The translations under genes and the position numbers were made by a program. Of a stretch of DNA of 64,000 nucleotides, positions 1,414 to 5,489 are shown piece by piece; the first letter of the stretch is position 1; each line of letters begins with the position of its first letter. The notes beneath the pieces were generated by a model. It made no database searches. It worked only from the letters and a program-made list of their open reading frames with translations, and had not been told where the DNA came from. Origin of the DNA: Cyanobium sp. Cruz CV13-4-11 (GTDB taxonomy: Bacteria; Cyanobacteriota; Cyanobacteriia; PCC-6307; Cyanobiaceae); NCBI RefSeq assembly GCF_024346055.1, contig NZ_JAGQCH010000008.1, positions 1-64,000 on the forward strand. Direction: 5' to 3'.

Positions 1414-1824
1414 ATGCCTGTTTACACCCAAAGCACCAGCCTAAATGACAAGGCTTATGACTTACCTAACCAGAACTGGACAGCAGTAGGCCCTGCATTC
1501 AAAGTCACGAAAAAGTTTAACAAAACACCGATTGAATTAGAGTATTCCGGGGAGGTGCTCGCAGCGTCTATTTCAGGCAACGGGGTATCGTTTCAGATCA
1601 GGCTCGATAACAAGGTCCCGTCATTTTTTTCTCAGGGTTCCCTGAAATCGACAGAGCTCCGAGATGAGGTTACAGCCAAGAGCATCTATGTAGGCTTGCC
1701 TGCTGGAAGCTATACCGGGCAGATATATGCGCAGGCACCTAATCCAGGCTCGTCCGCAAAGGGGATTGTGCTCGACCCCGGTGGCTGGGGAGAAAAAGTT
1801 CTTATAACTGAATTCGAAACCTAG
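1414..1824 (+). CDS. Hypothetical 136-aa protein, probably all-beta
   Basis: I do not recognise a family. The protein has no signal peptide and no membrane segment. It is rich in Thr, Ser, Val and Gly with alternating hydrophobic residues, which suggests a beta-sandwich. Its base composition is clearly more A/T-rich than the housekeeping genes and its codon use differs, consistent with acquisition. It starts with MPVYTQSTSL and ends in a TAG; no neighbour lies close enough for an operon. A phage or secreted structural protein is possible but not shown. Confidence 0.55.
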   Translation: MPVYTQSTSLNDKAYDLPNQNWTAVGPAFKVTKKFNKTPIELEYSGEVLAASISGNGVSFQIRLDNKVPSFFSQGSLKSTELRDEVTAKSIYVGLPAGSYTGQIYAQAPNPGSSAKGIVLDPGGWGEKVLITEFET

Positions 1825-2309: not shown

Positions 2310-4661
2310 TCAGGTCTCCAGCAGCATCTTCGACAGATTCGGCAGGCCCGCCCCCTGGTGGTAGCGGTCCCGTTGCAGGTCGGTGCAGTGCTCCAGCAGG
2401 ATGCGTTTCACCCGGTCGGGATAGCCGATGAATTCGGTGCGCACCGAGAGGAAGGCGGCCAGCAGGCCGGAGATGTGGGGTGCCGCCATGCTGGTGCCGG
2501 AGAGCGCCACATAGAGCTCATCGAGGCTCTTGCCCTTGTCGCGGCTGGGGGTGCGTTTGGGGTCGCTGCTGCTCCTGCACGAAAGGATCCGCTCCCCGGG
2601 GCCCACCACGTCGGGCTTGAGGCGGCCATCGGCGGTGGGGCCCCGCGAGGAGAAGTAGGAGGTGCCATAGCGGTGCGGCAGGGTCGGGTGTACCGAGCCC
2701 ACGGCGATCGCCTCCTCCAGGTTGGCCGGATCGCCGATCGACAGATCGAACGAGCGGGTGGCGCTGAAGCCGTCAACCACGATGTCGCCGCTGCCTTCGT
2801 TGCCCGCCGCCAGCACCACCAGCACCCCCTGGCGCACCAGCCGCAGCAGGGAGGCGCACAGGGGGGAATCGCCGCAGCCGAAGCTGGCCGCATCGAACGG
2901 TCCCCCCAGGCTCAGGTTCACCCCCTGGATCGCCAGGCGCCGTCCCTCCTGGTTCTGCCTCCAGATGTGGTCGATCGCCTTGATGATCCAGGCGTCGTAG
3001 CCGCCGCCATTGTCGGCCAGCACCTTGTAGCTGACGATCCGGGCCCGGGGGGCCATCGCCAACAGGTCGGGGCCGCCCTCGCCGCCCACCGACAGCAGCC
3101 CGCCGGCGATGATCCCCGCCACGTGGGTGCCGTGGCCGTTGGCGTCGTTGCCGCTCCCCGGCTTCACCGGCCCCCGCTCCGTGCAGTCCCACTCGGCGGC
3201 GATCGTTCCGTCCGGGGCAAGGCTTGCGTTGTGGAAGTGGGGGTGCTGCCGGTCGATGCCGGTGTCGAGCACGGCCCAGGTGATGCCCTGGCCGCAGGCG
3301 TTGTAGCCCAGCTGGGCGGTGCGGGCCTGCACCGTGTGGATCGAATCGATCATCAGCGCCTTCTTGCGGCTGTTGCTGAACATCCGGTACACCGCCGGTG
3401 AACTGGCGCCGTACTGGCGGCTCATCGCCCCCGCCAGCGTCTCCACCTCGGCGCGGGTCAGGTTCACCGCCACGTAGCGATCCAGCTGGTCCTCCAGGTA
3501 CACCGTCTCGGCGGTGATCGGACCCTGCAGCACATGCGCCCGGATCCACTCCAGCACCGCCTGCCGCGCCTTCTGCAGCGAATCGCCCCCCTCGCCTGCC
3601 CCCGCGGCGCGATCCGCCAGCTCGATCAGCACCGGCACGCGGGCGGTGGCCTCCACATCCAGCGCATCGGCCAGGCTGCGGGCCACCGTCATCGGGCTCA
3701 CAGGCTGGAAGCGGGAGCGGTCCAGCGCCGCCATCACCGTCGCCTGGGTCGTCTGGCGCGACAGATAGCGGCTGGCGGAATGGGCCTTGCTGGGCGGCCA
3801 CACCACCCCCATCACCCGTTCATCGACGATCTTCGGCTTGCCGGCGGCGCTGTATTCATCGGCCAGGCTCTGGTCGAGGCAGACGATGTCGCCGTCCTGG
3901 GCGATGTTCACCCAGCGCTTCACACCGGCCGGGATCGGCAGCGTCTTGCCGTGCCATTGCTGCAGCACGTCGGTCACCTGGGGCAGCCCCAGCGGCGAGC
4001 CGATCGTCACGTACAGATCCACCTCCACGGCGGCGCCCAGCTCCATCAGCGCCTGGTAGGTCACCATGCTCCCCTGGCTGTGGCCGACCACCACGAAGGG
4101 GCCCCCGCCGGTGCTGACCCGGTCCTTCACCGTCTGCACCATCCGCTGCCGCTTCGTCTTGTTGAACAGGAAATCGTTCACATCCGCCATGAACGCCTGG
4201 GTGAACATCGCCGTCACCGGACTCCACAGCCCCTTCGCCTCCACTGAGCGCGCCGCCGGGCCCCCCATCGGTGCCCCCCGCTGGGCCGCCGTCCGGGCGG
4301 CCGCCTCCAGCTGCGCCGTCAGCGCGTCCACGAACGCCTGCGACGCTTCCGGCGCATCGCTGTCCTGGATCGAGGCGGCCAGCAGCGCCTCCGCGCCCGG
4401 CTGCAGCGTCGCCCGGTCCTCGCCGATCGCCCGGGTGGAGAACCCCGCCGTCTCCGGGTAGCGCTCCCGGTCGACCCAGTAGGCCATGCGGGTGCGCTCC
4501 CCCTGGTCGGCGCCGAACAGGGCCCGGTCCCACTCCGAGCGCAGCACCCCCTCGGGGGGCATGTTGGAGATCCCGTGGCAGTAGATCACCGTGCGGGCCT
4601 GCCCCCGCGCGATCGGGGCGCTGGCGCTGCCGGCGGCGGCGGCTTTTTTCGGGGCGGTCAT
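2310..4661 (-). CDS. Fusion of an alpha/beta-hydrolase-like domain with a subtilisin (S8) protease
   Basis: 783 residues from the ATG at 4661; an upstream ATG at 4721 would add 20 residues (MARRCPDW) but runs close to the divergent gene, so I prefer 4661. Counting from 4721, residues 40-280 look like an alpha/beta hydrolase: a strand ending VIYCHG and a GHSQG nucleophile elbow with Ser215. After a linker of about 180 residues comes a complete S8 domain: Asp486 in VLDTGID, His530 in NGHGTHVAG, oxyanion Asn641 in AAGNEG and Ser744 in SGTSMAAPH. No signal peptide or membrane segment is seen, so a cytoplasmic or non-classically exported enzyme is likely. It is monocistronic. The substrate and the purpose of joining an esterase-like fold to a protease are unknown. 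Confidence 0.85.
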   Translation of the reverse strand: MTAPKKAAAAGSASAPIARGQARTVIYCHGISNMPPEGVLRSEWDRALFGADQGERTRMAYWVDRERYPETAGFSTRAIGEDRATLQPGAEALLAASIQDSDAPEASQAFVDALTAQLEAAARTAAQRGAPMGGPAARSVEAKGLWSPVTAMFTQAFMADVNDFLFNKTKRQRMVQTVKDRVSTGGGPFVVVGHSQGSMVTYQALMELGAAVEVDLYVTIGSPLGLPQVTDVLQQWHGKTLPIPAGVKRWVNIAQDGDIVCLDQSLADEYSAAGKPKIVDERVMGVVWPPSKAHSASRYLSRQTTQATVMAALDRSRFQPVSPMTVARSLADALDVEATARVPVLIELADRAAGAGEGGDSLQKARQAVLEWIRAHVLQGPITAETVYLEDQLDRYVAVNLTRAEVETLAGAMSRQYGASSPAVYRMFSNSRKKALMIDSIHTVQARTAQLGYNACGQGITWAVLDTGIDRQHPHFHNASLAPDGTIAAEWDCTERGPVKPGSGNDANGHGTHVAGIIAGGLLSVGGEGGPDLLAMAPRARIVSYKVLADNGGGYDAWIIKAIDHIWRQNQEGRRLAIQGVNLSLGGPFDAASFGCGDSPLCASLLRLVRQGVLVVLAAGNEGSGDIVVDGFSATRSFDLSIGDPANLEEAIAVGSVHPTLPHRYGTSYFSSRGPTADGRLKPDVVGPGERILSCRSSSDPKRTPSRDKGKSLDELYVALSGTSMAAPHISGLLAAFLSVRTEFIGYPDRVKRILLEHCTDLQRDRYHQGAGLPNLSKMLLET

Positions 4662-4763
4662 GGTGGCGCACAAGAAGGGAACCCATCTCCGCCTTAGCCA
4701 GTCCGGACATCGCCGGGCCATGGCCCGCCGCCGGTGTCATCGTTCTTGAGCCCGCCCCCGCCC

Positions 4764-5489
4764 ATGGCCCTGCTCCTCACCGTTCTGGCCCTGGCGCTGG
4801 TGCTGGATCTCCTGGTGCTGGTGGTGCTGCTGCCTTCGCTGCTGATCCGCCTGTTGCTGGTGCCGCTGTATCCGGAGGTGGTGTGGTGCGGCCGGGGCCG
4901 GCAGAAGACGCTGGCCCTCACCATCGACGACGGACCCAGCGGCCCCGGTTCGGAGGCCCTGCTGGCCCTGCTGCGGGATCTGGAGGTGCCGGCAACCTTC
5001 TTCCTGATCGGCTCCCACCTCGAGCGCGACCACCGCTTCGCCCGCCGGGCCCTGCAGCAGGGTCACGACCTCGGCAACCACCTCTGGCGCGATCAGCGCT
5101 CCGCCGCCCTGCCGCCGCAGCCCTTCCAGCAGCAACTCGTTGAAACCGAACGGGCGATCGCCCGTGCCGCCGCCCCCGCCCGGCTGCACTGGCGCTGGTT
5201 CCGCCCCGGCGGCGGCTGGTTCCACCGGACCATGCTCGACGCCCTCGCGGCCCGCTCCTACCGCCTGGTGCTGGGGTCGATCTTTCCCTGGGATACCCTG
5301 CGGCCGCCCCTGTGGTTCGTGCGCCTGTTCGTGCGTCTCAATGCCCATCCCGGCGGCATCCTGGTGCTGCACGACACCCCGGACCTCAGCGGCCGCACTC
5401 TGGAAACGCTTCGCCTCATCGTTCCCGACCTGCGCCGCCGCGGCTACTGCTTTGTGCCCCTGCAGGAGCTGCTCGCTACGGCCCCCTGA
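4764..5489 (+). CDS. Membrane-anchored polysaccharide deacetylase (NodB domain)
   Basis: 241 residues from the ATG at 4764; an in-frame ATG at 4734 would add MSSFLSPPPP, which interrupts the hydrophobic N-terminus, so the later start is favoured. Residues 1-35 form a long Leu/Val-rich signal anchor. The carbohydrate esterase 4 core follows: TIDDGPS (catalytic base and metal Asp), GNHLW in place of the usual HSxxH metal motif, FRPGGGWF (RPPGG-like) and LVLHDTPD. It probably removes N- or O-acetyl groups from a cell-envelope polysaccharide or peptidoglycan at the outer face of the inner membrane. The weakened metal motif leaves activity uncertain. lpxD begins 37 bp downstream, so co-transcription is plausible. 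Confidence 0.8.

Follow-up and report, generated by a model that had tools for sequence, protein, structure and literature searches.

The minus strand of a 64,000-nucleotide stretch of Cyanobium sp. Cruz CV13-4-11 (contig NZ_JAGQCH010000008.1, positions 1 to 64,000; hereafter "the window") carries a gene for a protein in which a subtilisin propeptide connects an α/β-hydrolase to an S8 protease in one chain. What do two hydrolytic enzymes do for, or to, each other within one chain? The initial annotation of this locus suggested that the hydrolase could be a substrate of the protease, a targeting module or a second activity on the same target. Here, we describe the architecture of the protein, follow its two enzymatic halves through other genomes, and discuss a mechanism by which the protease would control the hydrolase.

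Architecture of the fused protein

The minus-strand open reading frame 2310-4721 translates into 803 amino acids without a stop, and residues are numbered throughout from its ATG at 4721. The initial annotation used the same numbering along with a span of 2310-4661. Position 4661 is that of Met21, where translation more likely begins, since the tail ahead of the first strand of the hydrolase is poorly conserved, the orthologue of genome G361 begins right at that strand, and an ATG at 4721 would sit 12 bp from the divergent neighbour gene. The features discussed below are as follows.

2310..4661, minus strand: coding sequence of the fused hydrolase-propeptide-subtilase, likely start Met21, further in-frame ATG at 4721
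3702..4595, minus strand: α/β-hydrolase domain, residues 43-340 (from ATG 4721), based on a sub-threshold Abhydrolase_6 match, an orthologue above the PF00975 cut-off and the family alignment
4077..4079, minus strand: Ser215, nucleophile in GHSQG, without exception in 22 orthologues and in 24 relatives
3888..3890, minus strand: Asp278, predicted triad acid, invariant in orthologues and relatives
3780..3782, minus strand: His314, predicted triad base, invariant in orthologues and relatives
3327..3644, minus strand: subtilisin propeptide, residues ~360-465, based on aligned pro-subtilisin structures and dN/dS
2313..3326, minus strand: S8 catalytic domain, residues 466-803, based on PF00082 (E 1e-45) and phmmer matches to PDB subtilisins
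3264..3266, minus strand: Asp486 of the S8 triad, from alignment
3132..3134, minus strand: His530 of the S8 triad, from alignment
2490..2492, minus strand: Ser744 of the S8 triad, in GTSMAAPH, from alignment
4734..5489, plus strand: divergent neighbour, polysaccharide deacetylase (PF01522, E 4e-21)

Translation and alignment place the GHSQG serine and the Asp486/His530/Ser744 triad in one chain, exactly at the residues first reported, and inspection by eye agrees with the earlier reading in revealing no signal peptide or other export signal. Two features had been overlooked: the hydrolase possesses a full predicted triad of its own (S215, D278, H314), and residues ~360-465 form a subtilisin propeptide.

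The hydrolase fold proposed for the N-terminus finds support in an orthologue, but the window domain itself stays below threshold: its best Pfam score is 23.2 bits for Abhydrolase_6 against a threshold of 26.3, while the G361 orthologue (P0006) reaches 37.8 bits for PF00975, above the curated cut-off of 26.4. PF00975 is a family of the α/β-hydrolase fold. In the family alignment all 24 relatives keep, in order, the oxyanion HG (HGI in the window), the xHSxG elbow, the Asp and the His; Asp278 and His314 follow Ser215 in the canonical α/β-hydrolase order, and the predicted triad S215-D278-H314 is complete. The hydrolase weakly resembles PGAP1-, LCAT- and lipase-like profiles, which suggests a lipid substrate. 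A structure search with the predicted model (mean pLDDT 63) returned a list filled by subtilisins, with no α/β-hydrolase structure among the matches. Two hydrolase segments of low model confidence, residues 89-122 and 148-169 (model residues 69-102 and 128-149), are candidate gating loops.

The protease half matches Peptidase_S8 at residues 477-791 (Pfam PF00082, E 1e-45), and D486, H530, S744 and the oxyanion Asn641, together with S215 of the hydrolase, are invariant across 22 aligned orthologues. Unprocessed pro-subtilisin E and ProN-Tk-SP align with the model at a Z of about 31 (VIA-align to 3whi and 3afg), over a span of model residues 316/340-783, where model residues 340-783 correspond to residues 360-803. 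Triad, oxyanion Asn and a pro-subtilisin-type N-terminal propeptide are all present, and the protein is accordingly a member of family S8. In comparison with nine orthologues, dN/dS amounts to 0.18-0.33 for the hydrolase, 0.07-0.25 for the S8 domain and 0.28-0.84 for the propeptide. Hence, both enzymes are under purifying selection, the S8 domain is more conserved than the hydrolase, and the propeptide is the fastest-evolving of the three domains.

Distribution and genomic setting

Photosystem II genes in the window genome confirm it as cyanobacterial. Of 300 genomes examined in its bacterial family, 23 carry a full-length fused orthologue, counting G194, where the gene is split in two by a frameshift. 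Further orthologues were found in a second cyanobacterial family (48%), an acidobacterial MAG, Microvirga vignae and at the edges of two prophage contigs. The concern that the fusion might be an accident of one genome is thereby settled: the same domain order exists in two cyanobacterial families, Acidobacteriota, Alphaproteobacteria and prophage-edge contigs. In the S8-domain tree all fused forms constitute one group (99/99) within a long-stemmed clade (100/99), in which several branches are poorly resolved and the other members are unfused. On the two IMG/VR prophage contigs (L142:2963-4860 and L143:2975-4860), a phage-type integrase is the neighbour of the fused gene, which may be either a host gene or cargo.

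Within the window's genus the fused gene is patchy, with a remnant in G005 besides the frameshifted copy in G194. The closest relatives of the window gene are 93-95% identical. Among the 21 other orthologous loci, 14 have the polysaccharide deacetylase within flanks of about 1.5 kb, the fused gene being divergent to it in many strains, and strains without the fused gene mostly yield no deacetylase match either. The window gene is mostly syntenic in its lineage and occupies a chromosomal site shared by many strains, with apparent vertical inheritance. Its direct neighbours include no STAND, NTPase or sensor gene. A 136-aa open reading frame (1414-1824, plus strand) lies downstream and convergent, without a Pfam match and without a relative in the other orthologous flanks.

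Proteases of several folds accompany the hydrolase

Members of the hydrolase family nearly always have a protease as fusion partner or neighbour, a well supported observation that extends to at least four protease folds. Within the window's bacterial family, 28 hydrolase matches divide into 23 fused to S8, four fused to a metacaspase and one beside a caspase gene. The metacaspase-hydrolase fusions stem from four genomes, three of them of the window's genus, and none in the sample carries both types of fusion, although the numbers are too small to establish exclusion. These C14-α/β-hydrolase proteins (L228:3272-5278 in G268, L260, L261 and L262) are about 640-670 aa long, and no subtilisin fusion was found there. 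A large cyanobacterial genome (G624) encodes an 878-aa fusion of the hydrolase with a thermolysin-type M4 metalloprotease (L232:2724-5360).

Unfused hydrolases keep similar company. Three further genomes encode S8 and hydrolase separately within one locus; the two genes are neighbours in two of these genomes and about 7 kb apart in the other. In ten loci (L204, L206, L220, L223, L225, L266, L271, L275, L276, L277) the hydrolase directly adjoins a caspase gene, in several cases of the caspase-STAND-WD40 or caspase-TPR type, and in three (L224, L264, L270) a trypsin gene. The partner in L276 is a C14-VMAP-M14-VMAP-C protein, i.e., a caspase-VMAP, and its hydrolase (P0008) aligns with the window domain. 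In L222 the hydrolase clusters with CHAT and S8 genes. A recognisable peptidase neighbour is absent from five loci: none was seen in L205 and L207, and the only partner in L265, L269 and L272 is a STAND, VMAP or WD40 protein (VMAP in L269); L221 is left out of this tally. Relatives in other phyla reside beside caspase-STAND-WD40, VMAP, CHAT or TIR genes, on plasmids or at prophage edges.

Two hydrolases on Streptomyces plasmids (L220:4647-5498 and L221:4635-5483) are publicly annotated as serine peptidase, a label that looks wrong and hides the pairing. In another cyanobacterial family, an island of G341 (L278:2867-12564) comprises S8, CHAT-SIR2, an apparent STAND-type ATPase (by eye), radical SAM and hydrolase genes, which suggests a larger conflict system.

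Since proteases of at least four folds turn up as partners of its relatives, comparative genomics argues, with regard to the three roles put forward initially, for a dedicated pair in which the hydrolase is either the target of the protease or its effector; nothing supports the lipoprotein or stored polyester named there as a common target.

A subtilase clade with hydrolase partners

The coupling is also apparent from the protease side. Among the retrieved S8 loci, a wide score gap (492 to 221 bits) separates the clade from all other S8 proteins. On Rhizobium and Rhodococcus plasmids the clade S8 gene is followed after 9-12 bp by a gene of 435-442 aa, which itself is of the α/β-hydrolase type and bears a GHSFG elbow. 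The same pair exists in Mycobacterium colombiense, a Gemmatimonadota MAG, a Bryobacterales MAG and G111, a genome of the window's bacterial family; where unfused, clade subtilases mostly neighbour a hydrolase other than that of the window protein. Of the 12 clade loci, 10 carry a member of one of two hydrolase families (four fused, six as a neighbouring gene), versus none of 131 other S8 loci, which were scored for these two families only; the corresponding p-value of 9e-14 is only descriptive, given that the loci depend on one another and that some of them went into the profiles. The two remaining clade members (L064, L067) also lie beside an α/β-hydrolase-type gene.

Profile comparison aligns the two hydrolase families in the first strand region only, and they are treated as separate. 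The second family is partnered by S8, a C25 peptidase or CHAT-STAND. A structure model of a second-family hydrolase was discarded (three sequences in the alignment, pLDDT 44).

Two clade loci are unusual in composition. In L064 a GMC oxidoreductase-α/β-hydrolase fusion of 1136 aa (L064:1368-4778) lies 6 bp upstream of the subtilase, with a metallophosphatase-like gene (by eye) downstream, and in a Pseudomonadota MAG (L067:3007-8621) a divergently oriented gene for a Tle1-like phospholipase, together with genes for an MBL-fold protein and DUF4062, flanks the subtilase in an unusual conflict-type cluster. Databases label clade subtilases only as S8 family peptidases, and the fused form provides an entry to them, as well as to the hydrolases sometimes mislabelled serine peptidase.

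A protease-gated hydrolase?

The reading we favour, which in our estimate has an even chance of being right, is a single-chain protease-hydrolase module: a cytosolic zymogen, in which the subtilisin frees or un-gates a lipid or ester hydrolase that arrests or damages the cell. It is favoured because the hydrolase and the VMAP caspase have been proposed to operate jointly (Kaur et al. 2020, PMC7159879). In this reading, a hydrolase of the family accompanying STAND/VMAP caspases is joined via a subtilisin propeptide to an active subtilisin, and the chain would be made as a cytosolic zymogen. Upon some trigger the subtilisin would mature by cutting at the junction of propeptide and catalytic domain, around residue 459-466, and this cut by itself would part hydrolase and protease. 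The subtilisin might also cut flexible hydrolase segments, in cis or in trans. Cutting would release or un-gate the hydrolase, which then would attack an ester substrate, probably a membrane lipid, such that the cell is arrested or damaged. That the protease acts on the hydrolase, and not vice versa, is the direction of activation we infer.

The purpose may be defence or programmed death, as judged from the gene company of the relatives; this argument is weakest in the window's own lineage, where the gene is mostly syntenic. Indeed, its mostly syntenic position beside the deacetylase, and not in a mobile island, and the 93-95% identity of its closest relatives count against the favoured mechanism, as they would suit a stably kept physiological function no less than one in defence. 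The lack of an adjoining STAND, NTPase or sensor gene and the few hydrolase relatives with no recognisable peptidase next to them also count against it. More tentatively, and with rather less than even confidence, the protein may represent a class of one-gene cell-death or immune effectors gated by proteases, for which subtilisin, caspase, trypsin, M4, C25 and CHAT are interchangeable activators.

Alternatively, the protein might be a physiological cytosolic enzyme with two activities, serving for example the turnover of acylated proteins or storage material, without any role in defence. Apparent vertical inheritance, the chromosomal site shared by many strains and purifying selection speak for such an enzyme, yet a substrate-linked neighbour is absent, the gene is patchy in the genus and decayed in G005 and G194, and in other phyla relatives keep the company of caspase-STAND-WD40, VMAP, CHAT and TIR genes, or are found on plasmids and at prophage edges. 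We consider this explanation unlikely, at roughly one chance in five or slightly above.

Slightly less probable still is an inverted hierarchy, in which the subtilisin is the effector and degrades proteins of the cell or of a phage, and the hydrolase is a regulator that responds to a lipid or acyl product or strips off an acyl group. Proteases are able to act alone as executioners, and of the two enzymes S8 is the better conserved (dN/dS 0.07-0.25 versus 0.18-0.33). However, in the one analysed precedent the protease is the activator (PMC12799240). Moreover, throughout the loci compared here the hydrolase is constant and the protease fold changes, which is more easily read as the hydrolase being the effector.

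It is improbable that the subtilisin is a maturation factor only, removing its propeptide during folding, and that the fusion merely ensures that a housekeeping hydrolase is expressed with it. The chain does have a propeptide, and subtilisins normally process themselves, but caspase, trypsin and M4 folds, which do not use this propeptide, in the same place would be left unexplained. Finally, a chance fusion or annotation artefact is practically ruled out by the orthologues and the single supported S8 clade of fused forms.

If several unrelated protease folds indeed control one lipase-like enzyme, bacterial immunity would in general make use of hydrolases gated by proteolysis, and protease-gated hydrolases would stand alongside the gasdermins and the pro-nucleases reported in 2025. 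In the favoured reading, activator and effector are contained in one chain of 783 residues (from Met21), and therefore, the mechanism is testable with two point mutants.

Comparison with known systems

Some similarities to annotated defence genes do not hold up. The window subtilase partly resembles IetS models (E 1.9e-11, S8 part only), but there is no AAA ATPase partner IetA (the neighbours are the deacetylase and the 136-aa open reading frame without a Pfam match), and a generic PADLOC subtilase model scores far better. The match to that model (6e-61) is largely generic and does not define a defence gene: L096, an S8 protein outside the clade, reaches 2e-40, and the second S8 protein of the window genome 1e-10. 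Phage records match the S8 part only, at 29-32% identity.

Compared with peptidase family S8 (pro-subtilisin E, Tk-SP), the window protein has in common the catalytic domain, the Asp/His/Ser triad and the propeptide, and differs by the whole α/β-hydrolase ahead of them and by the lack of a visible export signal.

Proteases are reported to switch on pro-nucleases, and more classes of proteolytically activated enzymes are deemed possible (PMC12799240). The HamM-HamAB, Avs and Canu systems described there combine a hydrolytic enzyme with a protease of interchangeable fold (trypsin, caspase), like the window family; their hydrolytic enzyme is an MBL-fold nuclease with demonstrated proteolytic activation, in contrast to an α/β-hydrolase whose activation we infer.

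The closest precedent is the MoxR-vWA-VMAP hydrolase-caspase pair. VMAP proteins with a caspase are reported never to lack an accompanying α/β-hydrolase gene (Kaur et al. 2020, PMC7159879), and the hydrolase family is homologous, with the same obligate coupling of hydrolase and protease, as the setting of P0008 in L276 illustrates. The partner is a caspase there and an S8 subtilisin with propeptide, in a single chain, in the window; MoxR, vWA or VMAP genes were not recognised among the immediate neighbours of the window gene. A literature search of incomplete coverage retrieved no description of a subtilisin or M4 protease fused to or paired with this hydrolase, of the hydrolase-linked subtilase clade, or of the single-chain metacaspase-hydrolases of these cyanobacteria. 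The initial remark that no described enzyme with this domain order was known agrees with this search as far as the subtilisin fusion is concerned, but the pairing of hydrolase and protease as such is on record (PMC7159879). Both domains are known ones, and a partnership of the hydrolase family with caspases has already been published; the window gene is its single-chain, subtilisin-powered variant.
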